From positions 124,001 to 188,000 of the forward strand of contig NZ_LDCP01000002.1 in NCBI RefSeq assembly GCF_001021555.1: a DNA stretch of 64,000 bases. Reading direction: 5' to 3'. The DNA is from Aurantiacibacter marinus. GTDB taxonomy: Bacteria; Pseudomonadota; Alphaproteobacteria; Sphingomonadales; Sphingomonadaceae. A model generated the notes under the pieces. It worked only from the letters and a program-made list of their open reading frames with translations, had not been told where the DNA came from and searched no databases. A program made the translations under genes and the position numbers. Below are positions 5,756 through 12,815 of this stretch, piece after piece (positions within the stretch are counted from its first letter, which is position 1; every line of letters starts with the position of its first letter).

Positions 5756-6628
5756 CTATTGTATGCGGCGCACCCGATATCCGCGTGCAGACAGCAGGGC
5801 AGGGAGGCCCGTTTCACCCAACATATGCCCCACGCCGACTGCCACCAGCAGATCCTGGCCGGGGTCCGAAGCCTGAAATTGCACGATCTGGTCGGCATAA
5901 CCTGCATTGCGATCATCGACGAGGTTTTCACGCAAATCGGTATTGCCGCGAAAGCTGGTAAGAATTGAAGTTTCTATCGCTTGCAGGTCACCCGCCAGCC
6001 ATGCAGCTCTGCGCGCGTTTCCGGCGCGGCAATCGCTTTCCTCTGCAACACTGACAAGCAAGTCGGCCTGCGCATCATCTGGCAGGCCGTCAAATACAGC
6101 AAATTGCCTGTCGAAACTTTCAAGCGACCGGGCATTGTCAAATCGGGCAAGCAATGCCCGGTCCACGCCATTGGCCGCATTGGAGCACCGCGCAGCATTG
6201 CCCAGTTGCAGCGCTGCGGCCCAGGTTTCGGTATGGATCAAGCTGGCAGGATCAATGCCGGCAGCATCCAGAGATGCGGCAAGCATCGCCTTCTGCCGCC
6301 CCGGAACGCGGTCGAGAATAGGAACAAGGCCGACATCGTAGGCACGCGCTTCAAACGCAAGGGCCGCTTGTTCACGCTCACCCAGGTCGGCGATTTCGAC
6401 CAGCAGCAGGTCGGTTTCGGCCAGCACCCGTTCCAGTGCAGGCGTGCGCCATTCGGTGTCATCGGGCAGTGCGTGAATCGTACCGAACAGCCAGACACGT
6501 TCGCTTTCAGGCCCGGTCGCTTCCCAAAGGGCGGGCGAGGGCGGGGGCAGGTCCTCGCCGGAATCCTCAAGGGCGCCGCAGCTTGTCAGCCACAGCGCCC
6601 CCAGGATCAGTGTGAGTGAACGGATCAG
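5756..6628 (-). CDS. TraB/GumN family lipoprotein (CTG start)
   Basis: A 290-residue TraB/GumN-family protein. The fold's signature GTIHALP is at residues 49-55 and the closing VGVGH motif near residue 265. A signal peptide ends in the lipobox LTSC (cysteine 17), so it is probably membrane-anchored. The reading frame is open from an upstream stop near 6752 with no ATG, GTG or TTG until residue 68, already past the conserved GTIHALP. The only start that gives a signal peptide is the CTG at 6628-6626, which overlaps the TGA of the preceding TraB gene as CTGA. The biochemical role of bacterial TraB/GumN proteins is not settled; metal-dependent protease or chaperone activity has been suggested. 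Confidence 0.85.
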   Translation of the reverse strand: MIRSLTLILGALWLTSCGALEDSGEDLPPPSPALWEATGPESERVWLFGTIHALPDDTEWRTPALERVLAETDLLLVEIADLGEREQAALAFEARAYDVGLVPILDRVPGRQKAMLAASLDAAGIDPASLIHTETWAAALQLGNAARCSNAANGVDRALLARFDNARSLESFDRQFAVFDGLPDDAQADLLVSVAEESDCRAGNARRAAWLAGDLQAIETSILTSFRGNTDLRENLVDDRNAGYADQIVQFQASDPGQDLLVAVGVGHMLGETGLPALLSARGYRVRRIQ

Positions 6629-7569
6629 TATTCGACCCGCTCTGCCACATGGCCGCGCTCTGCCAGCAGATCCTGCACGCTGTTTCGGCCGCCAAGATGG
6701 CCAGCGCCAACCGCGATGAACACCGTGCCGGGCTGGTCCATCCGGTCATCGATCCAGAACGCCCAATTCGCGTTACGCTGGGTGAACAATACGTCGTAAA
6801 GCACCGGATCGCTTTCCATCGCATCATTCATGATATCAGCGAGGCCTTCTGGATCACCTTCCACCCATTCGGAAACCATCTGGCCAAACATTTCTTCCAT
6901 TTCACCAAGGCCGCCAATCGTGTCGTCGAGCATTGTCAGCTGCGCTTCGATAGGCAAGCCATCAAAAAAGCCCAGTTGCTGCGCGACGGTTTCGAATGCG
7001 GCGCGGTCCTTGTCCGCGATCATGTGGTCGAGTTGCATCTCGACGCCGTTTGCCGGATTCAGGCCTGCTTGCATCATGGCCACTTGTGTCAGGGTAAGAA
7101 AAGCAAACCAGGGCTCGAAACCATCGAGCGCGGCTTCTGGAATGTTCAGCCCGGTCATCGCGGCTTCGTATTCTGCCCGGTCTTCTTCATTCATCAAATC
7201 TCGCAAAGTGCCGCCAGTGGTCAGCTGGGCGAGGCCCATTTGCATTTCAGCGAATTCTGCCGGATTTTCCATGAGTGCGCTGGTGTCGATCTCGCTCACG
7301 AACTGGTCGGAACTTGTCAGCGCCTGCTCGACCGTGGGCTTCAGCCAATCGAGGCCTTCAGGAAGCACGTGGACCGTTCCGAACAGATAAATCGTGGTGT
7401 CTTCATCGGTCACGCGCCACAGGGCGGGGCCGCCCGCTGTGGCCTCGCCGGGCATCGCATGACCTTCATGACCTTCATGGCCTGCATGATCCTGAGCGAG
7501 CGTCGCGGCCGGAAATGCGCAGGCCGAAAGAGCGATGGCAGAGGCGGACAGAATTAGGTTCTTCAACAT
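6625..7569 (-). CDS. TraB/GumN family protein with His-rich linker
   Basis: A 314-residue TraB/GumN paralogue. The N-terminus is a signal peptide that could be cut at LAQ (residue 25/26) or act as a lipoprotein signal at LSAC (cysteine 17). Residues 27-38 form a His/Gly-rich linker with four histidines in the spacing HxxHxxHxxH, a possible metal-binding strip. The signature GTVHVLP is at 64-70 and VGAGH near residue 290. GAGAGGAA lies upstream of the start. It overlaps the next TraB gene by four bases (CTGA), implying coupled translation. It is 42 bases after the last gene of the small membrane-protein operon and could be part of that transcript. Confidence 0.9.
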   Translation of the reverse strand: MLKNLILSASAIALSACAFPAATLAQDHAGHEGHEGHAMPGEATAGGPALWRVTDEDTTIYLFGTVHVLPEGLDWLKPTVEQALTSSDQFVSEIDTSALMENPAEFAEMQMGLAQLTTGGTLRDLMNEEDRAEYEAAMTGLNIPEAALDGFEPWFAFLTLTQVAMMQAGLNPANGVEMQLDHMIADKDRAAFETVAQQLGFFDGLPIEAQLTMLDDTIGGLGEMEEMFGQMVSEWVEGDPEGLADIMNDAMESDPVLYDVLFTQRNANWAFWIDDRMDQPGTVFIAVGAGHLGGRNSVQDLLAERGHVAERVEY

Positions 7570-7611: not shown

Positions 7612-8040
7612 TCAGCGGAAATTGAGTTTTCTCAAACCGTAAGCGATGCCGGTCGAAAGAAGCGCGAAGAAGACTATCGCCATCGCAGACGGTGTGCGGA
7701 CGATTTCCATATCCGCGAGAAGGAACCATGCGAGATACGCCAGCACTCCTGCATAAAGGCCGATTGTGTGGGCCCAGAGATTGTCCATCAGATCAATCTC
7801 GTCGATCCGCCGAAAGTACTGCCAGGTCGCCCAGATCATACCCGCGACAACTGCAACTATGGCGGCAATGGGCAACCACAGCGGGATTGTGCCGTTCTGA
7901 TAGAGCTTTGACGCCAATCCGCTTGCGAATCCTGCAGTCACGGAAACAAGCATGGCTAAAGTAAAGTACAACCAGAACTTGCGGCGACGCGCTGCCAGGC
8001 GGGCTTCACCAGACAATTTCGGCTTGTTATCGTCCATCAT
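7612..8040 (-). CDS. Four-helix small membrane protein (array member 1)
   Basis: A 142-residue protein with a basic N-terminus and four predicted membrane helices (about residues 24-44, 54-75, 90-110 and 119-137). After helix 2 it has RRIDE followed by an LW pair leading into helix 3. This resembles the R-x-D-[DE]...[LM]W motif at the same place in its neighbours and suggests distant paralogy. The first ATG overlaps the preceding stop as ATGA, and AAGGA is upstream; a second ATG follows immediately. It is the last of eight tightly packed minus-strand genes. No known family was recognised. Confidence 0.82.
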   Translation of the reverse strand: MMDDNKPKLSGEARLAARRRKFWLYFTLAMLVSVTAGFASGLASKLYQNGTIPLWLPIAAIVAVVAGMIWATWQYFRRIDEIDLMDNLWAHTIGLYAGVLAYLAWFLLADMEIVRTPSAMAIVFFALLSTGIAYGLRKLNFR

Positions 8041-8348
8041 CCGACAGTTCCTTGTAGGGTTTCCCGGTTGGCAAAAAAAGAGCTTGAGCCATTTGGCCGC
8101 TTCCAGACATTCATGATCATGACCACAGCAACCGCGGCAATGTAGTGCAGTATCGCGTCAGGTTTCGAGAGAAGCCCCCAATCGCCGGAATACGTATCGC
8201 CGGCCAAGGTATTCAAAGCGGCGAACGAAGCCGTCAGGGATCCGATGAGACCGAATGTCAGCACAACGCCCCAGCCCATCAAGTGAACGAAACTCCGCGC
8301 GAAGGAAGGCTGCGCATCGTTTTCGGGCCAATCAGACTTCTGAGTCAT
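8037..8348 (-). CDS. Small membrane protein, 103 aa (array member 2)
   Basis: A 103-residue protein with two or three hydrophobic segments (about 19-48 and 66-82) and polar ends. Unlike its neighbours it has no RxDE motif, so it may be a different family. The ATG at 8348 lies inside the XRE regulator gene: the two genes overlap by 17 bases in different frames. The frame is open further upstream, but only through regulator coding sequence. Its tight packing between the regulator and the next four-helix gene suggests a protein that works with both; function unknown. Confidence 0.75.
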   Translation of the reverse strand: MTQKSDWPENDAQPSFARSFVHLMGWGVVLTFGLIGSLTASFAALNTLAGDTYSGDWGLLSKPDAILHYIAAVAVVMIMNVWKRPNGSSSFFANRETLQGTVG

Positions 8349-8529
8349 CGAAGATCTCCTCGATTGGCATTTCAAATAGTCGAGCGATGCGGAAGGCGAG
8401 GGGGAGGGACGGATCGTGCTTGCCCGTCTCGATCGCGTTCACTGCCTGGCGCGAGACATCGAGATGCCCCGCCAGCTCCGCCTGGCTCCAGTTGCGCATG
8501 GCGCGCAGGACTTTCAGCTTGTTGATCAA
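8332..8529 (-). CDS. XRE-family HTH regulator, 65 aa (TTG start)
   Basis: A minimal Cro/CI-type DNA-binding protein. The helix-turn-helix is WSQAELAGHLDVSRQAVNAIE (residues 13-33), followed by the DPSLPLAFRIARLF and IEEIF segments typical of very short XRE repressors that sit beside small membrane-protein genes. The frame is open further upstream without homology. The best start is the TTG at 8529-8527, which overlaps the previous gene's stop as TTGA and gives the usual family length. It is embedded in the membrane-protein array, so autoregulation of that operon is the simplest hypothesis; no operator was identified. Confidence 0.85.
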   Translation of the reverse strand: MINKLKVLRAMRNWSQAELAGHLDVSRQAVNAIETGKHDPSLPLAFRIARLFEMPIEEIFDDSEV

Positions 8530-8951
8530 AGGATAGTCCCGCGCATGCGATTGATCGCGTAGGCTGTCGCCCAGCTTGCCATCAGGACGCCGACCATCAC
8601 GTCCTCGCTCGGCTTCACCATCCAGCTTCCCAACAGGGGCGCAAAGTCCAGCAGGATTGAGGCAACAAGGGTGACCAGCACCGCGACAAAAGCCGCGTTG
8701 ACCATCGCCTGAAACACACATTCGTCATTTCTGCGGCGATCGATTTTTGATGTGAGTGTAATTGCCCAACTGAGAACAATCACGCCGACCAGAAGCACTC
8801 CGCCCATAAGCGGGGGATTGGACGAGGGCGAGATTGGCTGAACGGTGTCGAACCCTTCACCAAACAGCATCACGAAAGATGCCGCTCCCAACAGGATGAA
8901 CAGAAAATCTAGCATAACAAAAGGCCCGAAAGACCACGTTTTTCTGTTCAT
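8526..8951 (-). CDS. Four-helix small membrane protein (array member 3)
   Basis: A 141-residue protein with four predicted helices (about 11-30, 48-67, 82-100 and 118-134). Between helices 2 and 3 it carries DRRRNDE, the same charged position as in the neighbouring paralogues. The ATG at 8951 is chosen because GGAGGA sits seven bases upstream; an ATG five codons earlier lacks this. The frame is open a further 70 codons without homology. It precedes and overlaps the XRE regulator by four bases. Function not recognised. Confidence 0.8.
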   Translation of the reverse strand: MNRKTWSFGPFVMLDFLFILLGAASFVMLFGEGFDTVQPISPSSNPPLMGGVLLVGVIVLSWAITLTSKIDRRRNDECVFQAMVNAAFVAVLVTLVASILLDFAPLLGSWMVKPSEDVMVGVLMASWATAYAINRMRGTIL

Positions 8952-8997
8952 CGTACTATCCTCCATAATTCCAGATTCAGGCTCGTTCCTTCGGAAA

Positions 8998-9450
8998 TCA
9001 TATCCGCCCCCTGTGGTGATTGAACAAAAAGCCAGCGTGGAAGGCGGTGCTGCACATACCGGCCAGAAAAAAAGCGCCGCTAAAGGGGGAGGGGATTGCA
9101 AGGTTGCGCTTTCCTTCGGAGAATTCGCCGCCGACCGCCATGACGCCAACCCCGCGTCCGGTGTCATAAACCGTCAGCAAACCTTGCAATACCAGCCACA
9201 GACCCAGCGCTGCCAAGGCCCAGACCGCTCCGGTTTTGACGAGGCTCACGAAGTAATCGTCGAACTGGTTGTAAACCGCGAAGGTCACGAACCACACGCC
9301 CACCACGATCGCCGATACATTGGGTATCACCTCCCACATCGGAATGAACTGGGCGATGACTATGGCGACGCTCGCAATGACAGTAAGCCATAGCTGCCAA
9401 TAGGCATTTTCGCGCTGTTTCTGGTCCATGGAATTGGGTGTGTAGGGCAT
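8998..9450 (-). CDS. Four-helix small membrane protein (array member 4)
   Basis: A 150-residue protein with four predicted helices and an FDDYF motif between helices 2 and 3 leading to KTGAVWALAALG. It resembles the next gene upstream (9452-9895): both begin MPY-x-P, have a D-x-Y-[FY] motif before helix 3, and end with HAG[FY]xF in helix 4. It has a 25-residue soluble insert before helix 4. AAGGGAG lies six bases before the ATG at 9450, one base after the preceding stop. The 46 bases downstream, before array member 3, hold nothing recognisable. Confidence 0.82.
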   Translation of the reverse strand: MPYTPNSMDQKQRENAYWQLWLTVIASVAIVIAQFIPMWEVIPNVSAIVVGVWFVTFAVYNQFDDYFVSLVKTGAVWALAALGLWLVLQGLLTVYDTGRGVGVMAVGGEFSEGKRNLAIPSPFSGAFFLAGMCSTAFHAGFLFNHHRGRI

Positions 9451-9451
9451 G

Positions 9452-9895
9452 TCAGTCTCCCTTGCTTGTGATGAGATCGCGCAGATAGGCGAAGGCATAA
9501 CCGGCGTGGAATACCAGGCCGAGGATGAGCGCGAGCAGATACGCATCGCCGGTCAAGGTTTCGAAACCTGGTATCAGCCGCCGAAAGAGCGAGGTGTTGT
9601 TGTCAGCCCAAAGGAGAAGGAGGAAAACGCCAAGCGCGAATGCGGTGCACCGCGTACCGAAAGCGACGAGGTCTTGATAATAGCCATCCGTGCGGCCCCT
9701 TATCGCAGCCACCAATAGCGATCCGGCCACGCTTCCAATGATTACTCCGCTGAGCAGAAAGTCGTCAGCGTCAATCCAGTGCAGGACAAGCGCAGCGATA
9801 TTGCCAAGGCCAGATACCAAGGTCAGCCAGTAAAGCCTCTCGCGCTGAGCGATAACGGCCTGTTCGGGATCGTGCGTGTAGGGTTCGTAAGGCAT
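9452..9895 (-). CDS. Four-helix small membrane protein (array member 5)
   Basis: A 147-residue protein with four predicted helices (about 23-40, 47-64, 78-97 and 117-137). The RGRTDGYYQDL segment lies between helices 2 and 3. Its MPYEP start and HAGYAF helix 4 mark it as the closest relative of array member 4. Its ATG shares the final A of the preceding stop (TGATG), and GGGGGAA is upstream. The function is unknown; it is probably an inner-membrane protein acting with its neighbours. Confidence 0.83.
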   Translation of the reverse strand: MPYEPYTHDPEQAVIAQRERLYWLTLVSGLGNIAALVLHWIDADDFLLSGVIIGSVAGSLLVAAIRGRTDGYYQDLVAFGTRCTAFALGVFLLLLWADNNTSLFRRLIPGFETLTGDAYLLALILGLVFHAGYAFAYLRDLITSKGD

Positions 9896-10350
9896 CAGAA
9901 ATTCCCCCTGAAGCGCTTGAAGTGAAAGCCGATAAAGTATGCGGTGAGGGCGATTTCGGTCGTCCAGCCCGACACGGTGCGCTCTTCATGCGGCCTGACG
10001 TCCGATGGATGTCTCAGCAAACCTTCGATTGTACTCTCGATCAGCAGGCCGAAAAGGGACCAGGCGATGATCGCGAAGAAAGCCAAGGTAACGCCGCTGT
10101 GCCACATGCCGAGTGTGAAATCGTCCGTTCCACGGCGGAAGAACATGTATGCAAACGCGCCCATGACGGTGAACACGACAATCATGATGATCGGCAGGAG
10201 CCAACCGGGAACATCAAGCTCCCCATCCGGCCCGTAGAAAAGGGCGGCGATGACGAAAACACCAATCAGTGCCAAAGTGCCCGCGTCTGCCGCACGCAAA
10301 TAGCGATCAGCAAGTTTCTGGCGATTTGAAACGCTTGCGGGACCAGACAT
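9895..10350 (-). CDS. Four-helix small membrane protein (array member 6)
   Basis: A 151-residue protein with four helices and a clear copy of the array motif, RRGTDDFTLGMWHSG, between helices 2 and 3. Helix 3 is followed by a soluble loop and a last helix ending FHFKRFRGNF. It is most similar to array member 7 (RRSDEYTLALW; FNIKRL). The start is ATG 10350, which shares its A with the previous stop and has GGGAG seven bases upstream; the GTG one codon earlier is the alternative. Confidence 0.83.
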   Translation of the reverse strand: MSGPASVSNRQKLADRYLRAADAGTLALIGVFVIAALFYGPDGELDVPGWLLPIIMIVVFTVMGAFAYMFFRRGTDDFTLGMWHSGVTLAFFAIIAWSLFGLLIESTIEGLLRHPSDVRPHEERTVSGWTTEIALTAYFIGFHFKRFRGNF

Positions 10351-10760
10351 CACAAAGCTCCCGTCAGGCGCTTGATGTTGAACACGACATAAAAGGCGAT
10401 GATCGAAAAGCCGCTACCCGCTGCGTAGGAGAAATTTCTTTCTGCCTCCCGGCCTTCGTGGGCGGCATTGAAACCTTCCATCACACCTGCGGCGAATGGA
10501 CCGATTATCAGCCAGCCTATAATCGCGGCAAATGCAGCGTTGGTACCAGCGCTCCACAACGCCAACGTGTATTCGTCACTGCGACGCGTGAAAAACATGA
10601 CCGCCAGCGAAATGATCATCGCTGCCGCACAGATCGGAACGATCGCTTTTGGAAGCGCCAGAAGCTCGGCGGCGATGATCGTGAAAACGCTCAGCAGTCC
10701 GACAAGCCCCATTGCCAGATTGAGCGGGGCGCGGTTCTTGCGGGATTTTACGGTAGCCAT
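10350..10760 (-). CDS. Four-helix small membrane protein (array member 7, first of operon)
   Basis: The first gene of the overlapping array, 136 residues. It has a basic N-terminus, four helices and the motif RRSDEYTLALWSAG before helix 3. It is a close paralogue of member 6. A GAGGAAAG lies about 13 bases upstream of the ATG, further than usual. The operon promoter is probably in the 79 bases between this gene and the 49-residue ORF upstream, or further upstream; no convincing hexamers were seen. Function not recognised. Confidence 0.83.
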   Translation of the reverse strand: MATVKSRKNRAPLNLAMGLVGLLSVFTIIAAELLALPKAIVPICAAAMIISLAVMFFTRRSDEYTLALWSAGTNAAFAAIIGWLIIGPFAAGVMEGFNAAHEGREAERNFSYAAGSGFSIIAFYVVFNIKRLTGAL

Positions 10761-10839
10761 AATTTCTGTCTGCTTTCCTCAGGTGCCCCTCGCCGCAATC
10801 AATTAGGTGGACGATGCGGCGAGGGACTGGCTTATAGCC

Positions 10840-10989
10840 TTATGAATTGCGAATTTCTGCAGGCGCATCATCAGTGAAGTTAATCACCGCCTTTGCGCCG
10901 ATACTTCCCACACCATATCCGGCGAAATAAACCAGCGCGACTATACCAATGAAGGCGATCACGCGGCGCGGAGTAATCTGGGTGGTCAT
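10840..10989 (-). CDS. 49-aa single-pass membrane peptide
   Basis: A short gene preceded by AAGGAG nine bases upstream of its ATG, a strong ribosome site. The 49-residue product has a basic start (MTTQITPRR), one predicted membrane helix at about residues 10-30, and a short hydrophilic tail containing two aspartates and a glutamate. It lies 79 bases upstream of the membrane-protein array on the same strand, so it may be the array's first gene or an independent small protein. The ribosome site and the typical amphipathic layout argue that it is translated. No family was recognised. Confidence 0.7.
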   Translation of the reverse strand: MTTQITPRRVIAFIGIVALVYFAGYGVGSIGAKAVINFTDDAPAEIRNS

Positions 10990-11104
10990 GGACTTGGCTC
11001 CTTAAAAGCAGTGGTCGATATTCACGCAGGTGAGGGCGGCGGCTGACGGATCCATTGGGGGGAATGAAGCCATTGGGGGTGCGCCGCCCCCATTGCGGTT
11101 GGCA

Positions 11105-11434
11105 TTACGCTTCGAATGAAAGCTCGATGGAAGCGAAGCGGGTTTCGTTGGCCTGTGCAATCGCCAGTTCAACCCGCGGGCTGATCGCATCGGCCAGCGT
11201 GGCGCGGCACGCAGTTTCAACCTGGCGGGAAGCCAGATCACGTCCGCCGGTCCGGCAGGCGCGGCGGATCGCGGTTTCAACGCGGTTGTCGAGACGCGTC
11301 TGGTCGGTGGCATTGGCCAGATCGAGGTCGTCGGTCTGGACGGTAATAGTGACGTTCTCGGCGGTGGTCGTCGCGGTGGCAGGTACTGCCAGAAGAGTGA
11401 CGGCGGAAGCGATGGCGATGAGGGTCTTACGCAT
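11105..11434 (-). CDS. UrcA family protein
   Basis: A 109-residue exported protein: signal peptide (residues 1-22), then the UrcA pattern in which a [VT]xTxDLDLxxxxxxxxLxxR segment is followed by two conserved cysteines, here in RRACR and ETACRATL. The cysteines probably form a disulfide in the periplasm. UrcA proteins are common in sphingomonads and Caulobacterales but have no known function. The promoter at 11483-11540 is flanked by an inverted repeat. The 115 bases downstream contain two copies of CCATTGGGG but no clear terminator. Confidence 0.88.
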   Translation of the reverse strand: MRKTLIAIASAVTLLAVPATATTTAENVTITVQTDDLDLANATDQTRLDNRVETAIRRACRTGGRDLASRQVETACRATLADAISPRVELAIAQANETRFASIELSFEA

Positions 11435-11482
11435 GATGAAGGTCCTGTTTTCGAGTTGCGGTGTCTTGCCAACCTTCCGTTA

Positions 11483-11540
11483 TGTCAGGTTGCCCTTACT
11501 TTATGTCGCACCTTCTTTCCCATGTCAACAAGACCTGACA
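11483..11540 (-). promoter_or_regulatory. urcA promoter framed by an inverted repeat
   Basis: On the minus strand TTGACA (11528-11523), a 17-base spacer and CATAAA (11505-11500) form a sigma-70-like promoter about 65 bases before the UrcA gene. It is enclosed by a perfect 8-bp inverted repeat, TGTCAGGT at 11540-11533 and ACCTGACA at 11490-11483, one arm upstream of -35 and the other just past the predicted start. The placement suggests two operator half-sites, but the regulator is unknown. Confidence 0.5.
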
Positions 11541-11669
11541 AAAAGTCACTATCCCACGACTAACCGAAAAGATAGCGATGATATTTCAGTGATTTAATAA
11601 TCCGAACAGATCATCGACCGGAAGCGCGTCCGTCACGCCAAATTTCCGGATTTTCATGAAAACTGACCC

Positions 11670-11708: not shown

Positions 11709-12695
11709 TCACTCGATTCGATCTGCTTCCAGTCCGCGCGCCATCAGCATGTTCAGCAGCGAGCTTTCACCTTCGAAGTGTCCGGCACCAACAGCAAGCA
11801 GCACGGTCCCCGGCTGTTCCAGCCGTTCTTCGAGCCATATGGCCCAAGCAGCATTCCGCCGATCCAGCAGATTGTAATCGAAGGCGCGGCCAATCGCGCC
11901 GCTGCCAAGGCCAAGTTCAAAATCATCCGCCACGATGCCGCGTGCCCAATTGTGCTCGGCCTCCCAATAGGCATCACCGTATCGCTCGGCGTAATCCTCG
12001 TCGAAGAATTCGCTGAGTGATTTCCCATCCCACGCGGTCAGGCTGGTATCCAGTTCCCGGAGGATTTCCGAATTGTCGAGCCGGAGGAGGCTGTACATCA
12101 CTTCACCCGAATCCTCGATTGTCCGGATCGGGCGACCACTGCGCATAAACTCCCGCTCCAGCACGGTTTCCACGCCGTACAACGTCGATGAAGTATCAAA
12201 CTCGCCCCCGCTCATACCGACGGTCAGCAGGCCGAGCAGGACGGGCATTGTATCTATCGAAGCGAAATCGAGTCCGGACATACCGACCAGTTCACGCCAG
12301 CGTGTATTTCCTGCGTTCGAAAGGCGGTTGGAAGTCGGCAGACGGTTCGCGATGCGGGCCACCAGTTTGGAGTCCAGATCAATCGCATCCGGCACTTCGG
12401 CATAGGTGCTGCTTTCGACCACCAGCACATCAGCCGTGTCGATAATCTCGTTCAGGCGTTCGCTCCGCCAGCGGAAGCCACGTGGCAACGCATGGATTGT
12501 GCCGAGCAGGTAAATCGTCGTGTCTTCATCAGACAGTTCCCAAATCGCCGGCGAGGGATCGTAATCCTGCGTGAATTCGAACTGGCGCTGCTGCTGTTGA
12601 ACCTGCTGCCCTTGCGCGGCTGCGGGCAGGGCGGGCAACAGGGCGGAGAACAGCGCGAGCAACAGCGCAGTAAGGGGGCCTGCGGTGCGGATCAT
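11709..12695 (-). CDS. TraB/GumN family protein, third paralogue
   Basis: The third TraB/GumN protein in seven kilobases. From the chosen ATG it has a long signal peptide (MIRTAG then a Leu/Ala-rich stretch ending AAAQ), a Gln-rich segment, the signature DEDTTIYLLGTIHALP, a helical middle, and the closing VLLAVGAGH motif. Two further in-frame ATGs, at 12722 and 12743, would extend it by 9 or 16 residues; none has a clear ribosome site, so the start is uncertain. It is closer to the copy at 6625 (both have DEDTTIYL before the motif) than to the lipoprotein copy. It is divergent from glyQ. Confidence 0.88.
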   Translation of the reverse strand: MIRTAGPLTALLLALFSALLPALPAAAQGQQVQQQQRQFEFTQDYDPSPAIWELSDEDTTIYLLGTIHALPRGFRWRSERLNEIIDTADVLVVESSTYAEVPDAIDLDSKLVARIANRLPTSNRLSNAGNTRWRELVGMSGLDFASIDTMPVLLGLLTVGMSGGEFDTSSTLYGVETVLEREFMRSGRPIRTIEDSGEVMYSLLRLDNSEILRELDTSLTAWDGKSLSEFFDEDYAERYGDAYWEAEHNWARGIVADDFELGLGSGAIGRAFDYNLLDRRNAAWAIWLEERLEQPGTVLLAVGAGHFEGESSLLNMLMARGLEADRIE

Positions 12696-12815
12696 TGTCC
12701 GGCGTAGATCGTGCCATTGCATAGGGCGCAGTTGAGCCGCCATTCCATCTATCTGTCAAGCAACCGGCGTAGCTGGCATTGACGGTTTGAAAGCCATAAG
12801 GCACTGCGCCGCACC

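Follow-up and report, generated by a model that had tools for sequence, protein, structure and literature searches.

In the inactive state, CylR2 of Enterococcus faecalis occupies the cytolysin promoter; induction requires CylR1, a suspected membrane protein, by a route that a 2013 review gives as unknown (PMC3709268). In the LytTR systems HdrRM and BrsRM a DNA-binding protein and a membrane inhibitor are encoded in one autoregulated operon (PMC6193735). BcrR joins a DNA-binding domain to a four-helix membrane part in one chain (PMC13384398), and transmembrane transcription regulators of its type are listed in PMC10269533. Here we describe a locus of Aurantiacibacter marinus in which a helix-turn-helix (HTH) gene lies within a row of seven membrane protein genes. 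It was found in a stretch of 64,000 nucleotides (termed the window, meaning the whole of this stretch) on contig C2 of a 2.84-Mb genome. We think it fairly probable that this array is a self-regulated operon in which membrane partners, by way of a cytoplasmic R-x-x-D/E loop, would adjust the DNA binding of the HTH autorepressor, much as CylR1 may do for CylR2.

The array comprises eight genes, all on the minus strand and running from 10760 down to 7612. As the initial annotation had described, they overlap (by 1–17 bp) or nearly touch (gaps of 1 and 46 bp). In transcriptional order they are, with lengths in amino acids (aa):

10350..10760 (−), A: four-helix membrane protein of the A subfamily, 136 aa; AlphaFold2 model with four long helices
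9895..10350 (−), B: membrane protein of the A subfamily, 151 aa; matched by A at E 2.2e-10, 30% identity
9452..9895 (−), C: membrane protein of the M subfamily, start MPYxP, 147 aa; placed by profile and tree
8998..9450 (−), D: membrane protein of the M subfamily, 150 aa, ATG start at 9450; placed by profile and tree
8526..8951 (−), E: membrane protein of the E subfamily, 141 aa; homologues in loci L104 and L117
8332..8529 (−), HTH: HTH_3 (XRE) DNA-binding protein, CylR2-like, 65 aa, TTG start; PF01381 at 51.5 bits
8037..8348 (−), F: membrane protein, 103 aa, probably an internally deleted S-type protein; pairwise matches to a protein of locus L218
7612..8040 (−), G: four-helix membrane protein with the motif RxDExDxxDNLW, 142 aa, the most conserved partner; placed by profile

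A single predicted promoter, lying at 11463–11560 and laid out as in relatives, precedes the array. Three 16-bp palindromes, or as many as five, spaced at about 20 bp, extend over its −35 box, spacer and −10/+1 region:

11545..11560 (−), OU: upstream candidate operator GTCGTGGGATAGTGAC, partly conserved, site at −21
11524..11539 (−), OL: predicted operator, GTCA-N8-TGAC palindrome overlapping the −35 box; window copy and alignment
11500..11528 (−), promoter of sigma-70 type: TTGACA at 11523–11528, 17-bp spacer, CATAAA at 11500–11505; from the sequence
11505..11520 (−), OM: predicted operator within the spacer, degenerate in the window, right half GCGAC retained; alignment
11484..11499 (−), OR: predicted operator, palindrome directly after the −10 box; window copy and alignment
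11463..11478 (−), OD: candidate further operator, weak; alignment

Profiles and alignments were built from the window and 47 other loci (numbered with L), collected in sets of 15, 12 and 20; the second set had started out with 15, three of which were dropped because their contigs are those of L048, L051 and L052. Among 41 aligned promoters, both halves of OL are present in all 41, and the left and right halves of OR in 40 and 41, these two sites being loosely required by the search pattern. OM, absent from the first pattern, keeps its left half in 29 and its right half in 36; the corresponding counts are 26 and 19 for OU and 8 and 18 for OD. The consensus of the 41 standard-spacing copies reads GTCAGGT..TgTTGACAt.GtCAgcgAatCgCGACATa.AGTcAgG..aACCTGAC, with operator starts at −21, 0, 19, 40 and 61, that is, in steps of ∼20 bp or about two helical turns each.

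A loose promoter pattern matched 44 of 47 records, in one region each (with overlapping registers in 10 loci), 59 to 2818 bp ahead of the HTH frame. No match fell elsewhere on the same strand, and the reversed sequence gave 0 in 528,821 bases; the opposite strand had 45 regions, as expected of palindromes (counts alone were compared). The loci without the pattern are L113, L115 and L038, the last being a paralogous locus that has a variant of its own. A stricter DNA pattern was then applied to 199 related genomes, a group that may be wider than Erythrobacteraceae. It occurred in 40 of them, once per genome, and its reversed form in none. Thirty of these sites were read as loci: the HTH gene lies within the 1.5-kb flank in 27 and just beyond it in L207, L208 and L210.

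This single promoter ahead of all the genes is the best evidence for one autorepressed operon. The initial annotation had likewise proposed one operon with an embedded repressor; the first proposal stands on the promoter/operator region, and the second is likely given the conserved predicted operators over one promoter. It had, on the other hand, bounded the unit at 10760, too short by two genes. Binding of the HTH protein to the predicted operators, with repression of its own operon, is strongly implied, and its binding to the tandem sites would probably be cooperative.

The HTH protein scores 51.5 bits against PF01381 (cut-off 23), alone among the eight array genes in passing a Pfam or NCBIfam cut-off. 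Its 13 Pfam matches are all HTH-type, sigma or YdaS, with LytTR absent among them. Residues 1–61 align to residues 2–62 of CylR2 (E 1.3e-13); the closest solved protein is 9k3w, a ‘PbsX family’ regulator (E 2.7e-22). Conservation of the HTH protein far exceeds that of its neighbours: median pairwise identity is 84%, against 33% for G, 26% for A and 24% for M, and HTH identity was above G identity in 740 of 741 locus pairs.

Related HTH genes were also sought across the phylum. Of 299 genomes, 33 had a match, yielding 30 loci (three genomes gave no locus). Eight with an array-type HTH (L118–L125) were set aside, leaving 22 to be read (L126–L147, four of them from the same family), where the HTH is 61–77% identical. 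In 21 of the 22 (the exception is L143) a membrane protein of 125–248 aa is encoded adjacent on the same strand, with one or two such partners in the loci read, and this adjacency argues for a partnership of HTH and membrane proteins. Upstream, paired GTMARGNNNNCYTKAC sites (at most 2 mismatches) 32–44 bp apart were found in 20 of the 22, where 0.03 would be expected from mononucleotide shuffles; the phylum sites mostly read GTAAAG or GACAAG, N4, CTTxxC. Ten of the partners, from nine loci, matched no Pfam family above cut-off and nothing in NCBIfam at E 0.01. Five partner profiles, P1–P5, were built from 24 proteins (those of L128 and L140 excluded, one from L038 added); against the G profile they score 97.9, 94.5, 88.7, 95.1 and 93.2%, with reversed-array controls below 16%, and against A, M, R and E mostly low (best P1–A, 73%). 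Between partners, P1–P4 reaches 99%, and P2 stays below 6% against the others.

The genome of A. marinus itself holds at least two further modules, at C1:788.8–790.3 kb and C1:1161.6–1162.5 kb. The first (L038) has a second HTH gene with membrane partners and its own palindrome pair, with a AGGTTCCT core. Two plasmid records also carry HTH relatives. In a 197-kb record of Sphingomonas parapaucimobilis (L216) the block runs glyS-glyQ / HTH, three hypothetical proteins (149, 63 and 145 aa), TraB/GumN, ribosomal L25; a similar operator layout can be seen by eye ahead of the HTH gene, and the site scan did not rank that layout first. In a Pseudomonas aeruginosa record (L215) a gene for a 124-aa hypothetical protein overlaps the HTH relative and is followed by a non-ribosomal peptide synthetase gene.

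The membrane members share a motif of the R-x-x-D/E type, which A, B, C, D, E and G possess and F lacks, as the initial annotation implied by omitting it. Profiles were made for the A (19 sequences, including A and B of the window), M (19, including C and D), R (7), E (3), G (44) and S (6, mostly of six helices) subfamilies and for the HTH protein (H, 47). Comparison by hhalign joined G–S (99.4%), A–M (98.6%), A–R (96.0%), A–S (92.1%), A–G (86.2%) and R–G (66.6%), with weaker scores for M–G (47%), A–E (38%) and E–G (30%); M–R (18), M–E (16), M–S (14), E–S (2), R–E (1) and R–S (1%) did no better than controls. Of 36 controls with reversed columns 35 were below 25%, the exception being S against its own reverse (63%). 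The D/E of the motif falls in register in the A–G, A–R, A–E, A–S, R–G and E–G profile alignments. From these scores and the aligned motif, A–D, R, G and S very probably form one superfamily, joined mainly via A, to which E may also belong.

This superfamily appears to be without a name in Pfam or NCBIfam. None of the seven membrane members reached a curated cut-off in either database, the nearest approach being E to Yip1 (24.7 of 28.6 bits), and among 14 G proteins the commonest Pfam match was DUF805 (8 of 14, best E 0.00047, below cut-off, with cut-offs given for the first of these proteins). Membership in Oxidored_q3, TspO, Yip1, DUF3796, DUF805 or DUF3021 was accordingly rejected, every score being below cut-off. 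A search of PDB sequences with the G profile found nothing convincing (best E 0.61). AlphaFold2 gave four long helices both for A (pLDDT 82.9, pTM 0.74) and, less surely, for G (pLDDT 75.6), and Foldseek found no PDB structure for either model at E below 0.001 (best 0.52 and 1.7). The annotated ‘one unrecognised family’ thus holds in that no member enters a known family above cut-off and hhalign points to homology, with the link to E weak.

Topology was predicted from charge, using those sequences for which hydropathy gave four helices, no more and no fewer (16 of 19 for A, 18 of 19 for M, all 7 for R and 36 of 44 for G). Mean K+R is 2.9–6.9 at the N-end, 0.1–0.4 in loop 1–2, 2.1–3.0 in the motif loop, 0.3–1.4 in loop 3–4 and 1.7–2.4 at the C-end. 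By this distribution both ends, and with them the motif loop, should be cytoplasmic.

F is probably a six-helix S-type relative from which an internal deletion took out the motif: an S-type protein in L218 is matched at its start by residues 11–83 of F (E 2e-6) and at its end by residues 58–86 of F (E 3e-5), these E-values being computed over a handful of open reading frames (ORFs). An alternative, that F is a separate N-terminal part of a six-helix S protein, was dropped when the S N-terminal profile ranked F within shuffles. F is rare, in 3 of 149 genomes, that of A. marinus included. Single-sequence searches of the same number of genomes were also poor in yield for C (10/149) and A (14/149), owing to drift of the membrane proteins; the G profile found matches in 66 of 296. 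G is under purifying selection in two close species pairs (dN 0.036/dS 0.121 and dN 0.026/dS 0.306). At L051 (5332–5774) the G gene is in two pieces in different frames, possibly a broken gene or an assembly error.

Array composition varies around a constant plan. The HTH gene was found in 47 of 48 records, the exception (L090) starting at a contig edge, and HTH-bearing records have one partner in 23 cases, two in 11, three in 6 and four in 5; the largest arrays are those of the window (six, plus F) and L104 (seven). The order A - M - E - R - HTH - G/S recurs in many genera; among 13 arrays with at least two upstream-type subfamilies two deviate, L047 (R after HTH) and L050 (M before A). Which upstream members are present differs from locus to locus. 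The closest G proteins in named records come from Erythrobacter, Citromicrobium, Parerythrobacter, Altererythrobacter, Tsuneonella and Aurantiacibacter. In the tree built for the A and M subfamilies, C groups with the C-type gene of another species in the genus (support 90/84), D likewise with a D-type gene (98/61) and A with a gene of a further species (94/76), while B stands apart; the C-type clade has support of 100/100, and some long branches are unsure. From these pairings and the recurring gene order, the duplications look older than the genus, so that array size would change by loss and gain among old paralogues. Hence the pairs that had been called close, C/D and A/B, do share subfamilies but are not recent duplicates, and the tree, whose pairings cross species, gives no support to a recent in-place amplification.

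As predicted from the position of the promoter and operators, upstream of two more genes, the operon begins with a gene of the UrcA family, beyond 10760, and one for a 49-aa protein. It probably continues into two TraB/GumN genes:

11105..11434 (−), UrcA-family protein, 109 aa, predicted first gene of the operon; TIGR04433 at 59.3 bits (cut-off 25)
10840..10989 (−), 49-aa single-helix protein with a G-Y-G-x-G-N/S motif; similar ORFs in relatives by motif search
6625..7569 (−), TraB/GumN-family protein 1, 42 bp downstream of G; PF01963 at 240 bits
5756..6616 (−), TraB/GumN-family protein 2, lipobox-like LTSC, start approximate; PF01963 at 146 bits

UrcA lies upstream of the HTH gene in 12 of 47 loci, and ORFs of 39–49 aa resembling the 49-aa protein were found by motif search in 8 of 47, the window included. 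TraB/GumN genes lie downstream in 45 of 47: 26–77 bp past the last G/S gene in 33 and overlapping it by the longest frame in 10, the distance not being measurable in 2 records without G/S. In L135, a membrane-protein/HTH pair, a TraB/GumN-like frame (by eye) overlaps the HTH gene.

Directly after the UrcA stop codon (window 11030–11110) a hairpin is predicted, as in all 12 UrcA-bearing loci folded (besides the window L043, L044, L046, L047, L049, L096, L100, L103, L104, L105 and L117), with z between −1.3 and −3.2 relative to mononucleotide shuffles (in three loci weaker than −2) and letters differing per locus; perhaps it is an mRNA-stabilising or processing element. The second TraB/GumN gene (6575–6625) has no ATG, GTG or TTG ahead of a clear lipoprotein-like signal ILIRSLTLILGALWLTSC, and a CTG overlapping the stop of the first may be its start.

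In the mechanism that we propose, the HTH protein would occupy the tandem palindromes over the promoter and keep the operon off. The conserved R-x-x-D/E loop would touch it on the cytoplasmic side, and a change in the membrane or envelope would lead the partners to shift it between DNA-bound and membrane-bound or inactive states. Several paralogues would give several inputs to one repressor, and the output would be more partners together with the envelope proteins, UrcA and probably the two TraB/GumN proteins. We infer the contact of the four-helix proteins with the HTH protein; their sensing or partner role is favoured by analogy, as is a membrane-coupled autorepressor altogether, on the parallels with CylR2, LytTR and BcrR. 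More tentatively, and with real doubt, we raise the possibility of an unnamed membrane-coupled repressor class across the phylum. In it a nearly invariant 65-residue HTH on 16-bp operators every ∼20 bp would be served by fast-evolving four-helix partners binding through the cytoplasmic R-x-x-D/E loop, multiplied into ordered arrays in Erythrobacter relatives, with inputs competing.

Several observations weigh against this account. The 47 array loci were selected by array-protein matches and so have at least one partner by construction, the selection-free evidence being the operator search in 199 genomes and the phylum HTH search. The phylum motif GTMARGNNNNCYTKAC was defined once 17 of the 22 loci had been looked at (the pair is present in 4 of the 5 unseen), and P2–P5 align with G and hardly with A, M, R or E. 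G can be dispensed with, being absent, like S, from L040 and L044; in A, M and R the outer loops show a modest charge bias, and the G model is unsure (pTM 0.43). The conservation counts of OL and OR follow in part from the search patterns, which included both sites. A. marinus itself has no strict-pattern match: the family consensus is unmatched in the window, where OM is degenerate. Window palindromes (at most 3 mismatches) number 6 against 2.19 expected, and 3 of 100 shuffles had as many; being by themselves not clearly beyond chance, they leave the operator case to spacing and layout. Finally, the 46-bp pattern is blind to single palindromes, and other HTH targets are possible.

The membrane proteins could instead be cargo only, forming a hetero-oligomeric complex (a channel, a transporter accessory or a membrane-stabilising assembly), with the local HTH protein sensing something itself or simply setting a low level. 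Their fast drift, the presence of several subfamilies side by side, the four-helix folds given by AlphaFold2 and the variability of upstream members between loci would all suit such a complex. We nevertheless consider it unlikely, given that one or two membrane proteins adjoin the HTH gene in 21 of 22 phylum loci, that the conserved acidic motif is predicted to be cytoplasmic and that the related CylR1/CylR2 pair is regulatory.

It is very improbable that the array is a toxin-antitoxin or anti-phage defence island, with membrane toxins held by an HTH antitoxin. Small membrane proteins are common among toxins, and the HTH protein resembles those of antitoxins and of some defence systems, but it is nearly invariant and TraB/GumN genes are neighbours in 45 of 47 loci. 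A defence island was rejected since none of the seven membrane proteins matched PADLOC at E 0.01.

Scarcely credible as a general rule is that the palindromes are PpsR/CrtJ sites placing the array in a phototrophy regulon: the operator co-occurs with the HTH gene, has the different letters given above in the phylum, and is not restricted to PpsR genomes, PpsR being above cut-off, and reaction-centre genes present, in 8 of the 40 strict-operator genomes each, which largely refutes such control. What suggested it was TGT-N12-ACA, which we take to be the PpsR motif and which TGTCAGG-N4-CCTGACA fits, along with PpsR and reaction-centre genes in A. marinus (a ninth such genome, outside the 40) and a similar double site ahead of a presumed bchC-like gene. 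At E 0.001, weaker matches to PpsR turn up in 20 of 41 genomes, and 8 of 14 control genomes have them too. PpsR cross-binding in phototrophs is possible.

The double site came from an operator search of the A. marinus genome, which gave 11 places against 4 with the reversed pattern. Two of the 11 belong to the operon itself. Among the other nine, seven lie inside reading frames, and no frame of 90 aa covers L179. At L183 (C4:41414, 1500–1560) two TGTCA-N8-TGACA palindromes straddle the end of a frame ahead of the gene that we take to be bchC-like, and are presumably PpsR sites; they illustrate how close the PpsR-type and array operator types are.

Other features of the window and its relatives complete the inventory. 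A third TraB/GumN-family gene lies upstream of the operator:

11709-12743 (−), TraB/GumN-family gene

Identified neighbours of the array are UrcA, TraB/GumN, glyQS, ribosomal L25 and peptidyl-tRNA hydrolase. Immediately upstream of gene A, at 10780–10840, is an inverted repeat CCCTCGCCGC ... GCGGCGAGGG, with a similar one in L105. Rfam at gathering scores had zero matches in the window.

If the self-regulated, membrane-tuned operon is the correct reading, it would give a role to a protein set nameless in Pfam and NCBIfam. It would also supply a large natural set of CylR1/CylR2-like pairs in environmental bacteria, with operators predicted at single-base resolution. A candidate contact motif that is conserved, together with a partner number ranging from one to seven, would make the question of CylR1-to-CylR2 signalling directly testable. 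Among the papers listed by our literature search, outside whose scope most subscription journals lay, none was recognised as a description of such arrays.

Among described systems, CylR1/CylR2 is like the array in its 66-residue HTH protein, homologous over nearly the whole length, and in having a suspected multi-helix membrane protein encoded alongside. It differs in that CylR1 has three predicted helices and in that the pair controls a divergent lantibiotic operon, whereas the array has several four-helix paralogues and tandem operators, and the scan of its adjoining genes brought up no lantibiotic gene. The LytTR systems have a LytTR domain where the array regulator is of the HTH_3 type, and they activate via direct repeats upstream of −35, whereas the array has inverted repeats over −35, spacer and −10/+1. 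BcrR, whose DNA-binding domain is an XRE-type HTH, is one fused protein; in the array the two parts are encoded by separate genes. The unnamed phylum pairs share the related HTH, G-like partners and paired 16-bp palindromes. In the loci read they have one or two partners and operator cores that are mostly AAG; arrays reach seven partners, and most of their cores are GG.

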